Assembly (NCBI RefSeq): GCF_001610835.1
Contig: NZ_CP011270.1
Coordinates: 2,994,001 to 3,058,000 of the forward strand
Direction of reading: 5' to 3'
Origin: Planctomyces sp. SH-PL14
Lineage (GTDB): Bacteria; Planctomycetota; Planctomycetia; Planctomycetales; Planctomycetaceae
DNA: 64,000 bases
A program made the position numbers and the translations under genes. The notes under the pieces are model-generated. The model did not search any database, was not told the origin of the DNA, and was given only the letters and a program-made list of their open reading frames with translations. This document shows, piece after piece, positions 48,038 to 56,515 of this stretch. The stretch's first letter is position 1, and every line of letters begins with the position of its first letter.

Positions 48038-51000
48038 CTACTGCCGGACCTTGATGTCGAGCTCCGACTTCAACGCTCCCCCATTCACCTCAATCACGTA
48101 AAGCGGCGTCGCCTCGTTGTCTCCCGCGACCACCGTCGACTGGTCGGCCGACAGGTCCACCGCGTCGAACTTCGTCAGGTCGAACAGCGCCTTCTTCTCC
48201 TCGCCCGTCGTGACGTCAAACGCGCTGACGCAGTTCGCGTATGTCTGCAGGACCCGCTTGGAATCGAGGAAGTACAGCCCGCTCCGCGCCTGGCTCGGCG
48301 ACTGGATCGACCCGGTCAACTTTCCGTTCGCCATGTCGTGCGTCGTCATCATCCCCTTCGCGTCGAGAAGGAGCAGCGCCTGCCCGTCCAGCCGGATCGC
48401 CCCGGCGACCAGCCTGTTCTTCCCCGCCAGCTTGAGATCCGACAGCTTTCCGTTCTGCCACACACGGGCTCCGGCAGTCGAGGTGACCACCATAACCGTG
48501 GAACCGTCTTCGCTGATCGACACCGACCGGAGGCTCGTGTCCTTTCCGCGAACGTCATCCGGACTGAAGCCTTCCCCGTAAGGAATCTCGATCGTGGTCT
48601 TCGCCTGTTCCGTACTCCAGACACGGACCGACCGGCCGCTCGTGGTGGCGAAGAACTGTCCGTTCACGGTCGAGCAGAACTTCAGGATGTTGTCGTCGTG
48701 CGTTCCGAGGTCGGTCGCATTGGAAACGCGGCCCTGAGCCAGCGTCGCCTTCACGACATTGTTCTGCCCGACGCAGTAGAGCAGCTCCGGCGAGGCCCCG
48801 AAGGTGACGAAGCGGTTGGGGAGCTGCGGGTTGTAGTCCGCCACGGACTTGCTGGCGGTGTTCCAGATCTCCACCCCCTGCGAGGTCCGGCCCGTCGCCG
48901 CCCAGGCGCCGTCGGGGCTGATCGAGGTCGCCTCCACATAGGCCCGGCGATAAGGAGGCAGGCCGGAGCCCTGCACGTTGAAGAACACCACCGCCACGCC
49001 AAGGACCGCGACGGCGCTGGCGATGCTGGCGATCTTTTTGGGACCGAGTTCCTGCAGGGTGGCCCAGGGAGTTCCAAAGATCCCGGCGGCGAAATCGGAC
49101 AGCCCCGCCAGGGATGAACGCTTCGAGCCGGAGGAGGGACGGGGGAGCGAAACCGTGTCCAGCATCATCGTCGTGCTGGCGGCGGGGTTGGTCGCCCTGG
49201 TCGGCTTGATCTCGCCGACCAGTTCCTGCTCCGTCCGCTTCTCTCCCAGGGCCGCCAGCGCCTCAAAGACCGATTTGCGGACCGAATCGTCCGGATCGTG
49301 GACCATCTCGAGGAGCCGCGGCACCGCGGCCGGGCTCTTGATCGCCCCCAGGCAGTTGGCAGCCGCCTGCCGCACCCGGAAGCCGGGATCCGACAGGAGC
49401 GTCAGGACCTTCGGAACCGATGTCTTCTCCTGCAGCAACCCGATCGCCTGGAGGGCGTTGATCCGCACCCGCTCGGAGCCGCTGAGCGCCGCCTCGAGCG
49501 CCGGGATCGCATGCTTCTGCCCCTGCTCGCCCAGGGCGAGCGCTGCGGCGGCACGGACTTCGTCGGCCCGGTCGCTGCGGAGGGCATTCTCGAGCGCCCG
49601 GCGGGCCGAGGCGTCCTGGATCGGGCCCAGGGCCTCGACGGCGCGGCGGCGGATCATCGGGTCGGTCGACTCAAGATAGCCGATCAGCGGCACCAGGGAC
49701 CGGCGGTCCTTGAGGACCTGTAGCGCCTTGAAGATCCGCTGGATCAGGGCCTTGTCCTCTCCGCTGGCGGTCTCCTCCTCCAGCATCTTGACGAGGGTCG
49801 GCACCGCGGAGTTCTGGCCGAGCCGCCCGATCGCCTCGGAGGCGACGACCACCATCTCCCGGCTCGGGTCGACGAGGAACTTCTTCAGCGATCCGACGAC
49901 CGATTCGTCGCCGCACAGGCCCATCGAGGCCACGATGTTCTTCCGCACATCGAGCGACTTGTCCCGCAGCGAACGGACCAGGAACTTGGCCGATTTGGGA
50001 TCGGGATTGTCCCGCAGGCCGGCCGACGCGTGGATCCGGACGAGCTCGTCCGGGTTCTGGAGGGCCTCGATCAGGGGACGGATGACTTTCTTGCTGCGGA
50101 TATACGCCAGCCCCTCGGCGGCAACCCGCTGGATGAGCTTGTTCCCTTCCTTGAGCCCCGCCGAGAGGGCGGGAATCGCCCGGACGCTCTGCAGCCGCCC
50201 CAGCGCCTCGAAGGCGACGAAGCGGACTGCCTCCGGCTCCGCGGGCTCCGAGAGCTGCGCCATGTGCGGAACGATCGACTCCCCGAATCCGGCGAAGGCC
50301 TGCAGGACCCGCTCGCGATGCTCCGGCGCCGCGACCGCCAGAAGGCACAGGGCGGGGACGACCCGCGTCTCGCCGAAGCTCACGAGGGCCGCGATCGCCA
50401 CCGGCACGGCGGGCGATTTCTCTTCGTAGAGCGACCGCATCACGAGCGGAATCGCCACGGGGTCGCGCAGCCGTTCGAGCGCCTTGAGGGCTTCGGTCTT
50501 GAGGTTGTTCGGCAGGTCCATGTACCGGGCCCGCAGCAGCTCCGCGGCCCGCTCGTCGTTCGAGTTGCCGAGCATCTCGAACAGCGGCTTGGCCCGCTCG
50601 CACTCCATCGGGTTCGTGGCGGGGGTGATCGCCTCGATCGCCGTCGAAAGGTTCTTCCACTGCGAGCGCGTGAGCGGTTTCTCCCAGCTCCGCTCCGCGA
50701 CGACCGGTTTCTGCTCGAGGGCCTGCTCGATCGCCTCGCGGACCGTGTAGAGGGTGATGTCGATGTCGGTTCCCGGGGCGATCATGTCCACTTCGGACGT
50801 CGTCGTCGCCATCGGGGCCAGCGTCGTCTCGCCACAGGCGGGACAGATCACGGGCTGCCCCTCGAGCGAGCGGGAGACCGCGAAGTCCGCCGTGCACTTG
50901 TCGCAGATCGTCTTGAGCTTGGCCGCCTGGCCGCCGCTCTTGAGCTGGAACGAACGGCCCGAAGACCGGGACGAGACCCCCGATCGCCGGGACCCGCTCG

Positions 51001-52525
51001 CCGCCGAGGTCCCCGAGGCGCGGGACGATCCAGAGGCCGCGGACGCCGCGACGGAAGCCACGGGAGCCGGTTCGGCGGGGGGCGCCGCCGGCTCCGCCGC
51101 GGGAGTTCTTGCCGCCGCGATCTGCTGCCGCGTCGGAGCCGGCAGGACCGCCGTTCCGCCCGAGGTCCCGACCGTCCGGTTCCCAACCGGGGCCGGCGTT
51201 CCGGGAAGGACGAAGCCGGCCTCGTCGAATTCGGAGTCGCCTGATGACCGGGAGGCCACGAGAGGCGCCGGGGCGGAGACCGGAGCGCCGCTGGCGGCGG
51301 GCGTTTCTTTGCGGGGAAGCTCGAACTCGGAACTGTCGACGGCGTACGCCGGAGCGGTCCGGAACAGTCCGCTGACGGTCGAGGGCTCGGGCGCGGCCGC
51401 CGGCTCCGTGCGGAGGACCAGCCCGCACCCGCGGCAGCGGGCCATCGCCGGGAAGATGTCTTCGCCGCACTTGGGACAGGGCCGGGGCTCGTCCGAATGC
51501 TCGGGAGTGGCCCCCCCCGCAACGGCGGCCGTCTCATGAGACTCCGGAAGCGAGACGGACGTTCTGGAGGTCAGGATCTCGGACGGGACGATCATCGAAT
51601 CGCCGGAGTCCACGTCGTCGTCGCCGGCGGACTCGAGTTGTGCCAGTCCGGCCCCGATGAAGGTCGGGAGATCGTCGACCTCGCGATCGAGCGACGATTC
51701 ATCGAAGTCGTCCTCGATCAGGAAACGTTTCCCGTCGGGATCTTCCAGGGCGTCGAGCTCGGACAGGTCGTCGGCTCCCGGCGCGGGATTGACTCCCGAG
51801 ACCTGGGCCTCGTCGAAGATCGTCTGCTGCTGCGGCGTCTCCTGCACCGGCTGTCGCGTCGGCCGGTTGATGAGCAGCGGATCGAGGTCCTCCGGCCGCG
51901 GAGCGGAGAGCGAATCGCGGGAGCCGCCGACCGGCGTGCCGTCGATCAGGAAGGCCTTCACCCGCGGGGGAAGCCGCAGCTTCCCCCGGGTGGCAGCGAT
52001 CGCCAGCCCGCTCCCGAGCGTCGATTCGACGAAGTCGAAATACTCGTTCCAGAGCGCATCCCCCAGCGCGTCCCCCGTGGCCACGAGATCGAGCAGCCGG
52101 CACCAGGCGTGCGTCCCTTCGGTCAGCGTCTCCAGGACCTCCGGCGCGACCGTTCCGGTCTTGATCTCCCGCTGGAGCTTGACGGCGTTGCATTGCAGGT
52201 CCGCCAGCGGAGCGAAGGCGGAGTCGTCCACGTGCTGCAGCGCCAGGATCGGCTCGATCACGCGGCTGACCAGCCCGAGCGTCGAGGAGTGCACGAGCAT
52301 CCGCTCCATCGAGAGGAGCGAATGGATCGGGTTCGGCGAGCTGATGACCGAGACGAGCCGGTCGAACTCGGACTGGAACTCGGCGAGCGCCGCCAGCGTC
52401 TTCGACGACGGGGCAATCCCGGTCGTCTCCAGCCGCGCGAGCTCGTATTCCACTTGCCGCGCCAGCTGGCGCCCCTTCTTGCGGAGCTCCCGAACGGTCT
52501 GAAGCAGATTCGGCTTTCCGGTCAC
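48038..52525 (-). CDS. Giant membrane protein: zinc ribbons, HEAT repeats, membrane helix and beta-propeller
   Basis: 1495 residues from a GTG at 52525 overlapping the previous stop (GTGA). Residues 1-200 form a helical domain similar to the upstream partner. An acidic linker leads to a zinc ribbon (C350-x2-C353, C364-x2-C367), an Ala/Pro-rich stretch and a second zinc finger (ICDKCTADF...VICPACGE, about 540-570). From about 610 to 1130 come many HEAT/PBS-lyase-type repeats (ARRALENALRSDRADEVRAA, VVGSLKKFLVDPSREMVVVA). One membrane helix (IASIASAVAVLGVAVVFF) lies near 1175 and a WD-like propeller (YRRAYVEATSISPDGAW...) to the end. The cytoplasmic part should bind protein partners and the propeller lie outside. 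Specific function unknown. Confidence 0.82.
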   Translation of the reverse strand: MTGKPNLLQTVRELRKKGRQLARQVEYELARLETTGIAPSSKTLAALAEFQSEFDRLVSVISSPNPIHSLLSMERMLVHSSTLGLVSRVIEPILALQHVDDSAFAPLADLQCNAVKLQREIKTGTVAPEVLETLTEGTHAWCRLLDLVATGDALGDALWNEYFDFVESTLGSGLAIAATRGKLRLPPRVKAFLIDGTPVGGSRDSLSAPRPEDLDPLLINRPTRQPVQETPQQQTIFDEAQVSGVNPAPGADDLSELDALEDPDGKRFLIEDDFDESSLDREVDDLPTFIGAGLAQLESAGDDDVDSGDSMIVPSEILTSRTSVSLPESHETAAVAGGATPEHSDEPRPCPKCGEDIFPAMARCRGCGLVLRTEPAAAPEPSTVSGLFRTAPAYAVDSSEFELPRKETPAASGAPVSAPAPLVASRSSGDSEFDEAGFVLPGTPAPVGNRTVGTSGGTAVLPAPTRQQIAAARTPAAEPAAPPAEPAPVASVAASAASGSSRASGTSAASGSRRSGVSSRSSGRSFQLKSGGQAAKLKTICDKCTADFAVSRSLEGQPVICPACGETTLAPMATTTSEVDMIAPGTDIDITLYTVREAIEQALEQKPVVAERSWEKPLTRSQWKNLSTAIEAITPATNPMECERAKPLFEMLGNSNDERAAELLRARYMDLPNNLKTEALKALERLRDPVAIPLVMRSLYEEKSPAVPVAIAALVSFGETRVVPALCLLAVAAPEHRERVLQAFAGFGESIVPHMAQLSEPAEPEAVRFVAFEALGRLQSVRAIPALSAGLKEGNKLIQRVAAEGLAYIRSKKVIRPLIEALQNPDELVRIHASAGLRDNPDPKSAKFLVRSLRDKSLDVRKNIVASMGLCGDESVVGSLKKFLVDPSREMVVVASEAIGRLGQNSAVPTLVKMLEEETASGEDKALIQRIFKALQVLKDRRSLVPLIGYLESTDPMIRRRAVEALGPIQDASARRALENALRSDRADEVRAAAALALGEQGQKHAIPALEAALSGSERVRINALQAIGLLQEKTSVPKVLTLLSDPGFRVRQAAANCLGAIKSPAAVPRLLEMVHDPDDSVRKSVFEALAALGEKRTEQELVGEIKPTRATNPAASTTMMLDTVSLPRPSSGSKRSSLAGLSDFAAGIFGTPWATLQELGPKKIASIASAVAVLGVAVVFFNVQGSGLPPYRRAYVEATSISPDGAWAATGRTSQGVEIWNTASKSVADYNPQLPNRFVTFGASPELLYCVGQNNVVKATLAQGRVSNATDLGTHDDNILKFCSTVNGQFFATTSGRSVRVWSTEQAKTTIEIPYGEGFSPDDVRGKDTSLRSVSISEDGSTVMVVTSTAGARVWQNGKLSDLKLAGKNRLVAGAIRLDGQALLLLDAKGMMTTHDMANGKLTGSIQSPSQARSGLYFLDSKRVLQTYANCVSAFDVTTGEEKKALFDLTKFDAVDLSADQSTVVAGDNEATPLYVIEVNGGALKSELDIKVRQ

Positions 52526-53169
52526 GACTGGGGTTCCTCTGCAGAGGAGGCGGGGGGAGCCTGAACCGTCGAGGCGACGGAGGCGGGGGAGGGGGGGGAG
52601 GGGGCGGAGGGTGCCTCAATCGAAGCGGTCCCGGCGGAGGGAGCCAGGAACAGCCGGCCGCGGGCCAGCGCCAGCGGGACGTCCCGCCCGAACACGCCGG
52701 CCACCTGTTCGCTGAGCGCCTGCCATTCCTGATCCGTCAGTCGATCTCCTTCGGACGCCAGCCGCAGCAGGCCTTCGACGGTCCGCTGCACCGTTTCGCG
52801 TTCCTCCTCCGTCGCCGAGGCGATCCGGGCATGAATCGCCTGCAACTGCGAGATGTTGTCCGGGCGGGCCTGCAGCTGGCTCAACCCACCGGCTGGCCGG
52901 CTGGCCCCCTGGAGCTCCGAGAGGCGGGCCTCGAAGTGCTCGAAGGTCGGCGCCCCGACCGGAGCCGACCGATTGGGCCACGTGAATTCGCAGAAGGCGA
53001 CGTACTTCCGTTTGTATTGGGCCAGGCCCTGCACCGTCGCGGGGGGAATCGGCGCCCCTTCATCCAACAGCCCCGGCAGCGACTGGCGGACCAGCTCGCA
53101 CAGCGTCCGTCCGCGCTCCCGAAAGGCGGTATATCGGGCTGCCAGTTCATCGACCGGGACCGTGGGCAT
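52522..53169 (-). CDS. Paralogue of the N-terminal domain of the giant protein
   Basis: 215 residues from ATG 53169; its stop overlaps the giant protein's GTG by 4 bp, so the two are translationally coupled. RYTAFRERGRTLCELVRQSL and the following TVQGLAQYKRKYVAF parallel RELRKKGRQLARQVEYELA and TLAALAEFQSEFDRL in the giant protein. EWQALSEQVAGVFGRD and LALARGRLFL also have equivalents there (DALWNEYFDFVESTLGSG, IAATRGKLRLP). It is therefore a free-standing copy of that helical domain with a Pro/Ser-rich tail. No catalytic motif or membrane segment. The shared domain might mediate assembly of the two proteins. Confidence 0.72.
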   Translation of the reverse strand: MPTVPVDELAARYTAFRERGRTLCELVRQSLPGLLDEGAPIPPATVQGLAQYKRKYVAFCEFTWPNRSAPVGAPTFEHFEARLSELQGASRPAGGLSQLQARPDNISQLQAIHARIASATEEERETVQRTVEGLLRLASEGDRLTDQEWQALSEQVAGVFGRDVPLALARGRLFLAPSAGTASIEAPSAPSPPSPASVASTVQAPPASSAEEPQS

Positions 53170-53224
53170 GGAAGATTCCGACCTGGTGAAACGGGGAAAC
53201 GGCAGGACTTCGAGAACACAACAA

Positions 53225-53256
53225 GGCTGGCCAGCCCCCAGGGGGACTGACCAGCC
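53225..53256 (-). terminator. Stem-loop between the DUF1559 gene and the next operon
   Basis: A strong, slightly imperfect stem (GGCTGGTCAGTCCCC paired with GGGGCTGGCCAGCC on the reverse strand), 33 bases after the DUF1559 stop, followed by a T-rich TTGTTGTG. Likely a terminator or attenuator of the DUF1559 transcript. Confidence 0.65.
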
Positions 53257-53288
53257 TGTTTCAACATCGCTTCAACCGAGCAATTCGA

Positions 53289-54500: not shown

Positions 54501-55060
54501 GAGACCCTCCTCAGGGGAAATTCGAACGCGGGGCTTCTTGCAGCACTGCCCCACGCTCACGGAAAGAGCTGCGACGGCACACGGTCGCAGAAACGAAACT
54601 CATCGCCTGGATCACCGCACCGCGAGTTCGGTCGGTGTCCTTCCTTGACGGGGCGGCATTCCAATGGCGGTCTGTTAAGGGGCCGGGAACAGAGAATCAA
54701 AGTCAGAAGAAATGGAGCCCGCCTTTCAACGCCCGCTTGCTTAACGACACGCAAGCAGTACGTGAACCGATAATTAACAACACGAGTGTTCAATGCCGGT
54801 TGTCGATGCGAACGTTGCGGCGCTCAGGGTCGGGGGCCTTTCCTTGACCGGGCGCGCCTCCTGGTTCGCATCGACGCGAGACGGTCGGATTCGAAGGTTC
54901 CCTGGCCTCGGAGGATCGTTCGGCGCGACACGTCGCCGATCTCGTTAACTCGGAGTGAAAGCGCCACAGGCCATCTTGTCCCCAGGACTGGCCCGTGAGG
55001 AAAATCGCCGTCGGCGGCGACGCGGTCTGACGACGAAGCTCTCTGCGGGAACGGAAAGTG
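54501..55060. other. Divergent intergenic region between DUF1559 and kinase genes
   Basis: 560 bases, no gene seen. Includes an AT-rich island (GATAATTAACAACACG near 54770) next to a small palindrome (GCTTGC/GCAAGC with 10-base spacer near 54727-54748), a plausible promoter/operator zone for DUF1559. Confidence 0.45.
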
Positions 55061-56515
55061 ATGCCAATGACTTCGCCAACGACCAGCGGCCCTCTGGCTT
55101 CCTCCACCGATCTCAGCGGCCAGACGATCGCGGGGGGGCGGTACCATGTGGACCGCAAGCTCGGTACGGGGAGCATGGGGCACGTCTTCCTGGCTCACGA
55201 CGTCAACCTCGAGACCGAAGTCGTGGTCAAGGTGCCGACGCTGGCGCGGCTCGAGAACGAGGAGTTCCGGACCCGGTTCCTGCAGGAGTCCCGCGTCCTC
55301 GTCAAGCTCGGCCATCCGCACATCGTCCGGATCCTCGACGTCGGCGAATTCAAGGCCGTCCCCTACTTCGTGATGCAGTACATCGGCGGAGGGAGCCTCG
55401 ACGACCGGATCTACGACTCCGCCAATGAAGGGCCGGGACAGTCTCCGGACGAGGTCGCCGACTGGCTGCCGCGGGTCGCGGGGGCGCTCGACTTCGTCCA
55501 CATGCGGGGCTTCATCCATCGGGACGTCAAGCCGGCCAACATCCTCTTCGACGAGTTCGGCCACGCGTACCTGAGCGACTTCGGGCTCTCCCGCTTCACG
55601 AGTCCGGACGAGCAGAACAGCCGGATGACGGCGGCCGGCGCCGTCGTCGGGACTCCGAACTACGTGGCCCCCGAGGTGGTCCTGGGCCAGAAGTACGCCG
55701 GGCACGCCGACCAGTATTCTCTGGCGATGATGGTCTACGAGGCGCTGACCGGGGTGGTGCCGCTCGAAGGGCCCAGTCCCTCCGCCACGATGGTGAACCA
55801 GACGTCGAAGATGCCGCCGGCCCCCTCGAAGCACAACGCCGCTCTGTCCCCGGAGGTCGACGCCGTCCTCCTCCGGGCCCTCTCCAAGGGGCCGCTGAAG
55901 CGCTATCCCAACTGCCTGGAGTTCAGCAACGCCTTCCTGGAGGCGGCGGGGCTCACCTCGGCGGGCTCGGGGGCTCAGAAGCGGAGCGGCGAGCGAGCGA
56001 CGGCCGGGACCACTCCGGCTCCCCCTTCCAAGATCCCTGCGCGGCCCGCCTCGACCCGCAGTACCGTCACCAGCGCCGGAGACACGCAGATCTCCGTGCC
56101 GGTCCAGCGTTACAGCGTCAAGAAGACGACCAAGATCAAGAGGGACGGCACGGGGAGCTGCCCCAAGTGCTCGCACGAGCTGAAGCTCCGCCATAAGCAC
56201 GCCGGCCAGAAGGGACAATGCGTCAAGTGCCGTGGCCTTTTGGTCATCACGCGGGACCTGAAGGAGGTCAAGCACGTCGTCATCAACCGGCGGGCCGGGC
56301 AGTCCAATCTCAGCGAGTCCGATTTCGCCCTGCGGCTGGGGACGGAGCTGTTCGGCTGGAAGCTGCCGTTGATCGCGGCTCTCGTGATCGCCGTGGTGAT
56401 GACCGGGATCATTCTCTCCTCGGTCTCGTTCGTCAGCGTTCAGGCCAATCGGGACCTGGACAAGGAGAAGGCGGACAAGATGGGGACGCAGAAGGTGGGC
56501 ACGGAAGGGCGCTGA
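55061..56515 (+). CDS. Ser/Thr protein kinase with zinc ribbon and membrane helix
   Basis: 484 residues from ATG 55061 (a GTG lies just upstream). Residues 26-295 form a Hanks-type kinase domain: Gly-rich loop LGTGSMGHV, catalytic Lys57 in VVVKVP, D155 and N160 in IHRDVKPANI, D173 in LSDFGLS, and TPNYVAPE. A Ser/Thr/Pro linker follows, then a zinc ribbon C367-x2-C370, C387-x2-C390, and a single membrane helix near 435-457. The zinc ribbon resembles that of the giant protein encoded 2.5 kb away, suggesting membership in the same signalling module. Kinase should face the cytoplasm with a short exported tail. Ligand and targets are unknown. Confidence 0.93.
   Translation: MPMTSPTTSGPLASSTDLSGQTIAGGRYHVDRKLGTGSMGHVFLAHDVNLETEVVVKVPTLARLENEEFRTRFLQESRVLVKLGHPHIVRILDVGEFKAVPYFVMQYIGGGSLDDRIYDSANEGPGQSPDEVADWLPRVAGALDFVHMRGFIHRDVKPANILFDEFGHAYLSDFGLSRFTSPDEQNSRMTAAGAVVGTPNYVAPEVVLGQKYAGHADQYSLAMMVYEALTGVVPLEGPSPSATMVNQTSKMPPAPSKHNAALSPEVDAVLLRALSKGPLKRYPNCLEFSNAFLEAAGLTSAGSGAQKRSGERATAGTTPAPPSKIPARPASTRSTVTSAGDTQISVPVQRYSVKKTTKIKRDGTGSCPKCSHELKLRHKHAGQKGQCVKCRGLLVITRDLKEVKHVVINRRAGQSNLSESDFALRLGTELFGWKLPLIAALVIAVVMTGIILSSVSFVSVQANRDLDKEKADKMGTQKVGTEGR

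Follow-up and report, generated by a model that had tools for sequence, protein, structure and literature searches.

An overlapping gene pair

Two genes lie in the same orientation within the window (the whole 64,000-nucleotide stretch of Planctomyces sp. SH-PL14 DNA that was analysed, from a genome of 8.44 Mb on a single contig), a small gene followed by a very large one, with the stop codon of the first and the start codon of the second sharing the bases GTGA (Table 1). Both open reading frames, their sizes and this overlap are as the original prediction gave them. The sequence GAGGA is found approximately 9 bases upstream of the start of the big gene, at the overlap, and is a putative ribosome-binding site. 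The gene upstream of the small gene encodes a DUF1559, pseudopilin-like protein and is separated from it by a terminator-like hairpin, in a region where 8 such hairpins are observed against 3.9 expected. Given this hairpin, the two genes look like a transcription unit of their own. At third codon positions G+C amounts to 82% for the small gene and 83–91% for all segments of the big gene, and therefore the linkers between its domains also look coding.

Table 1. Coordinates of the gene pair and its features in the window.
Feature	Position	Strand	Description
Small gene	52522..53169	-	215 aa, ATG start; N-domain at residues ~6-182, Pro/Ser/Ala-rich tail
Big gene	48038..52525	-	1495 aa, GTG start; N-domain, linker, two zinc ribbons, HEAT, TM helix, propeller
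GTGA overlap	52522..52525	-	stop TGA of small gene and start GTG of big gene; from sequence
N-domain of big protein	51950..52513	-	residues 5-192, from profile; structure model covers residues 2-200
TIFD motif	51812..51823	-	residues 235-238, in linker; [ST][IV][FW][DE] type
Zinc ribbon 1	51413..51481	-	residues 349-371; below curated cut-off; start point of four stand-alone relatives
Zinc ribbon 2	50813..50905	-	residues 541-571; below curated cut-off; conserved in stand-alone relatives
HEAT array	49226..50725	-	residues ~601-1100; HEAT_2, 2.4e-57
Hydrophobic helix	48971..49039	-	residues 1163-1185; peak mean hydropathy 2.26
Beta-propeller region	48083..48946	-	residues ~1194-1481; several WD40-type models, best 1.4e-7, all below cut-offs
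Terminator-like hairpin	53224..53257	-	15 pairs, between upstream DUF1559 gene and small gene; consensus match only

Homology between the small protein and the big N-domain

The small protein had been proposed as a paralogue of the N-terminus of the big protein. In a two-sequence BLASTP comparison they share 24% identity over 177 columns (E 8e-5). Twenty-two related loci (L064-L085) were fetched, of which L080, from genome G033, was excluded as a false match before family building: its ORF resembles an SbcD-type nuclease by eye, has no Pfam match at E≤0.1, and comes from a genome that the N-domain profile misses. This leaves 21 loci with the domain, from which, together with the window, iterative gathering yielded a family of 41 sequences, hereafter the N-domain. 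Cross-profiles were then built without the window rows, with the small rows sorted by ORF length. A profile of 18 relatives' big N-domains scores 49.7 bits against the window small protein (best of 200 shuffles, 2.1), whilst a profile of 21 small rows, one of which (L076) is probably a big protein truncated by a contig end, scores 105.4 bits against the window big protein (best of 200 shuffles, 3.0). Against a profile of the whole family in relatives, window rows again excluded, the window small protein scores 62.0 bits (best of 200 shuffles, 4.9) and the big protein 120.1 bits; across the family, small and big domains fall in a similar score range. Towards the end of the domain, in its last quarter, L, D, W, G, A and R residues are among the columns that are at least 90% conserved; they lie around the element seen as ARGRLFL and ATRGKLRL in the window pair. 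A mere chance likeness of two helical, Leu/Arg-rich segments, which the modest BLASTP result might suggest, is ruled out for any practical purpose by the cross-profiles with their shuffles and by the recurrence of the same small/big pairing at 18 of 21 related loci. The profile comparison thus upholds the predicted homology.

The N-domain of the window big protein is modelled as nine helices, with a mean pLDDT of 94.8 and a pTM of 0.82. Searches of Pfam, NCBIfam, PADLOC and PDB sequences returned no convincing family. In Pfam, the small protein has no family at E≤1 and the window big N-domain none at E≤0.1; when all 41 members were searched, each family among the best 25 of 32 was matched by at most two members (best E 0.0022). 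The top PDB sequence match, to a kinesin-light-chain TPR-like design (E 0.00092), was rejected, as no stretch of it passes alone. A Foldseek search against the PDB gave no match at E≤0.001, so that no hint of function comes from the fold. The best Z in a VIA structural comparison was 8.5, over residues 2-84 only, a value of little meaning for helical bundles. A plasmid search with the small protein likewise gave no match. Taken together, the N-domain appears to be an uncatalogued family whose predicted fold is confident.

Distribution and gene neighbourhood in relatives

The N-domain profile matches 27 of 170 genomes of the order, with one to three matches per genome; 22 of these genomes are strong (E<1e-30) and five were dropped as weak (E above 1e-12). 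Phylum-wide it matches 7 of 392 genomes, and all 5 strong ones fall in the same family. The relatives are MAGs, Schlesneria and Planctomicrobium among them, and their family is presumably Planctomycetaceae; genome draws of 150 and 170 used here have members in common. In three genomes (G011, G062 and G097) we also note proteins of 631-674 aa with several weak, divergent N-domain matches (L130:6695-8635, L131:5097-6989 and L132:4062-6083), which are possibly further members.

The two genes had been described as a coupled pair. In relatives, the small gene precedes the big one as a neighbour on the same strand at 18 of the 21 loci, usually with a third gene in between; the remaining three (L070, L076, which is at a contig end, and L085) have one N-domain only. 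Neither a lack of homology nor a separation of the two genes in relatives, either of which would have spoken against the original prediction, was thus the outcome. This third gene, in the spacer of 17 of the 18 paired loci, encodes a small conserved protein that we call c8 (L084:3138-3380 and 18 other loci). It is approximately 80-110 aa long, with the motif LPxMAxVVN in a helical-looking start and HDLVEGDSIH near the end. Comparison of c8 with Pfam gave nothing convincing, four families each being matched by 1 of 19 members (best E 0.035). At L085 (genome G049), the N-domain gene and c8 are followed by a 541-aa relative of the big protein (L085:7855-9477) in which no N-domain was detected, possibly a split product of a big protein.

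Sequence clustering of the 22 fetched loci places the pair in a larger gene cluster, which the original prediction had missed, with bactofilin at 13 loci, a TPR protein at 16, an FKBP cluster at 18 and a Ser/Thr kinase cluster at 17; one member of each was checked against Pfam for identity. Here, the big proteins join the N-domain to a different, helical C-terminal half, whose model is nearly all helical (pLDDT 85.4) and which has no Foldseek match at E≤0.001. Co-occurrence was counted over the 170 genomes with cut-offs of E<1e-30 for the N-domain, <1e-20 for bactofilin and <1e-3 for c8, and with Fisher tests that ignore relatedness. At these cut-offs c8 is found in 30 of 170 genomes and, among the 22 strong N-domain genomes, in 21, whilst 14 have a strong bactofilin match. 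Besides that of the window, seven strong N-domain genomes are without a strong bactofilin match, and bactofilin is therefore loosely linked with the N-domain. The bactofilin cut-off removed 10 of 32 genomes (E above 1e-20), including G067 and G162, which are over the Pfam cut-off, and the N-domain genomes G105 and G040.

Conversely, a second group of genomes (g56) has bactofilin, c8, TPR protein and kinase together without the N-domain pair, as read at the loci of four of them (L160, L161, L162 and L164). A fifth locus of this type, L163 in G057, has bactofilin, c8 and kinase with no TPR match. The bactofilin tail at the four loci carries an SVFD/SVFE motif, as do big-protein linkers; it is absent from 13 other bactofilins examined. 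Separately, the TPR protein of the cluster at L084:6413-10129 has a weak AAA-type N-terminal match (E 0.0013, below cut-off) and, by eye, a degenerate-looking P-loop, NGRGVGRT. The sequence HVL with an acidic/leucine tail closes many of the related proteins.

The big gene of the window is a fusion

In the window the N-domain is followed by something quite different. The original prediction described two zinc ribbons, a HEAT array, a membrane helix and a propeller; of these the HEAT array is strongly recovered, whereas the zinc ribbons and propeller are weaker, falling below cut-offs but aligning with conserved regions of stand-alone relatives. These relatives, the proteins L126, L127, L128 and L129 of genomes G011, G062, G121 and G157, have the same domain order as the window protein from the first zinc ribbon onward. 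Unlike it, they begin at that ribbon, lack the linker and are not matched by the N-domain profile. By phmmer they match the HEAT part with E of 2.3e-49 to 3.1e-42 and the helix and propeller with 3.9e-15 to 1.4e-12, and overall they are 24.5-27.9% identical to the window protein over 1004-1100 aligned columns. Moreover, in G011 and G062 the stand-alone protein coexists with the N-domain pair, from which it lies on a different contig. As the scaffold part (residues ~346-1495), a whole zinc ribbon/HEAT/transmembrane/propeller protein, exists alone elsewhere, the big gene of the window is a fusion in which a member of the pair has been joined to it, an origin that the original prediction also missed. 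The fusion is seen in one genome, the single one of its genus among those covered.

A motif of the form [ST][IV][FW][DE] occurs in the linker, between N-domain and C-terminal half, of 13 of 18 relatives, against 0.25 expected from shuffled sequences; the N-domains and C-terminal halves of these relatives, 13530 aa in all, contain it once. The window linker has a single copy, at residue 235, for which the chance is 0.016, with the motif having been chosen after the sequences were viewed. The linker therefore probably travelled with the N-domain into the fusion. Inside the big gene there are in-frame codons GTG 305 and ATG 311, at either of which a separate HEAT protein could start.

The rest of the cluster was sought in the window genome. 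There is no match to bactofilin (PF04519) with all 7 candidates scored and none to c8 with 30 of 140 candidates scored; nor is there a c8 between the small and big genes, as these overlap. Nor was the helical C-terminal half found: with all 35 candidates scored against the relatives' big profile, the matches are the two window genes only, over positions 6-220 of its 891. At 55058-56515 (+) the window encodes a Ser/Thr kinase of divergent sequence, in which Pfam recognises a zinc ribbon at the C-terminus and a hydrophobic stretch is visible by eye, echoing the zinc-ribbon-plus-membrane theme of the neighbouring big protein. Its being a cluster remnant is not supported, since it matches the kinase of the cluster at 28% identity, against 61% for the best match in the same genome, at 2018651. 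No match was found to the first gene of the cluster, TPR or FKBP queries in the 19 kb around that second kinase. The latter (G000:C1:2018651-2019706, at L168:10517-15010) belongs to an open frame of 1498 aa, in which the linker is very long and rich in Pro and Ala.

Age of the pair

We next consider whether the small protein is, as the original prediction worded it, a copy of the big protein's own first domain. A tree was built from 46 rows, of which 21 are small and 19 big, with 5 divergent and 1 left unassigned. On it the small label changes 5 times and the big label 3 times, where shuffling gives means of 15.3 and 14.7; the small and big lineages are thus largely separate. No locus has its own small and big proteins grouping together. 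The window big protein groups with the big protein of L084 (support 98/86), whilst the window small protein sits on a long branch in no well-supported group, its placement unsure, and has its highest identity, 27%, to a big protein. Backbone support is poor throughout, and more than one early duplication may lie behind the pair. Even with the unsure long-branch placement of the window small protein, the tree rejects a recent tandem copy of the big N-domain. The homology in the earlier wording therefore stands, but not the copy: on these sequences the small protein is best described as an old paralogue.

A proposed role for the pair

We propose that the pair is an old paired, hetero-oligomeric helical adaptor that in the window has been joined to a swapped membrane scaffold, a reading to which we give an even chance of being right. 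Most likely the small protein would associate with the big N-domain, by direct binding or in mixed oligomers, and this association would control the assembly or placement of the big protein. In relatives, the big protein carries a helical half, which would serve as scaffold, within a cluster in which bactofilin, a cytoskeletal polymer, is often present. In the window genome, the N-domain and linker would have been joined in front of a complete zinc ribbon/HEAT/transmembrane/propeller protein and the remaining cluster lost or scattered. Here, the adaptor probably organises a membrane-anchored scaffold, with HEAT in the cytoplasm and the propeller beyond the membrane.

Several observations make hetero-assembly of the small protein with the big N-domain plausible: old paralogues have been kept together, in a conserved order, with overlapping frames in the window, and the distances of small proteins correlate with those of big N-domains. 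Among 18 relatives, the partial Mantel correlation between the small protein and the big N-domain, given the C-terminal half, is 0.52, with 0 of 2000 permutations as high; that for the C-terminal half, given the N-domain, is 0.28 (13 of 2000 permutations). The partial correlation may merely reflect like evolutionary rates of both domains. As to topology, the helix at residues 1163-1185 would separate the N-domain, zinc ribbons and HEAT array from the propeller across the membrane. Two lysines precede this helix, but arginines follow soon after it, and so a cytoplasmic position of the N-domain side is weakly indicated.

A different use of the same two domains deserves consideration, though we think it unlikely: the small protein could be a regulator, which competes with or caps the big N-domain, or is needed during synthesis only, so that the pair would form a switch and not a stable complex. 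Its being a free single domain whose gene overlaps the start of its partner is in keeping with this, as is the way in which it stays beside the big gene whatever the C-terminal half of the latter. Sequence data, however, do not separate a regulator from a stable assembly, both domains scoring alike against the family profile.

The pair also brings to mind the effector-associated domains (EADs) of biological-conflict systems, described (PMC7159879, eLife 2020) as mostly helical, non-enzymatic domains found as one copy per adjacent gene, tied to effectors and proposed to couple homotypically. In principle, EADs are the closest known system. The N-domain could accordingly be a coupling module of an immune-like system, with one copy on a sensor scaffold and the other on its partner; it is N-terminal, all-helical and without a recognised enzyme family, its second copy is adjacent, superstructure-forming repeats follow it, and the TPR protein of relatives has the sub-cut-off AAA match noted above, so that an NTPase core may be present there. 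Yet no effector or STAND NTPase core is recognised in the window pair, and against PADLOC the small protein has no match whilst the big protein is matched over its HEAT region only. Moreover, two EADs encoded side by side are as a tendency closest to each other (PMC7159879), whereas small and big proteins never group together by locus, the window big protein going with that of L084 and the small protein elsewhere, weakly. The few matches per genome also differ from many scattered copies. We therefore regard a conflict system as improbable.

Lastly, a clathrin/COP-type membrane-coat scaffold, as reported for planctomycetes, is very improbable, for although the window big protein does combine an alpha-solenoid with a beta-propeller, that architecture (PMC2799638, PLoS Biol 2010) has the propeller N-terminal to the solenoid, and here HEAT (~600-1100) precedes the propeller (~1194-1481) with a hydrophobic helix between.

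Returning to the adaptor, its nearest genomic context is the bactofilin (PF04519) neighbourhood in which the pair often lies in relatives, with TPR, FKBP and kinase genes; the window genome is without a detected bactofilin and the N-domain is not itself a bactofilin. A wider form of the same idea, which we hold somewhat more tentatively, is that the pair is an exchangeable, hetero-dimeric plug specific to Planctomycetaceae, one half of it free and the other fused to the scaffold of the lineage. With the same reserve, that scaffold would be helical and linked to bactofilin in most genomes, and the transmembrane HEAT/propeller protein in the genome of the window.

In agreement with the original prediction that no described system has this form, no description of the domain, the pair or the cluster was found in the literature searched, which took in few subscription journals. 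The shape and division of planctomycetes are a standing question. An uncatalogued domain, a conserved pair of paralogues and a scaffold-swapping fusion together offer a testable handle on this Planctomycetaceae cluster. If the pair does act as an exchangeable plug, the domain family, the principle of its pairing and the surrounding cluster would all be new, and would bear on how envelope or cytoskeletal structures are built and placed in the Planctomycetaceae.
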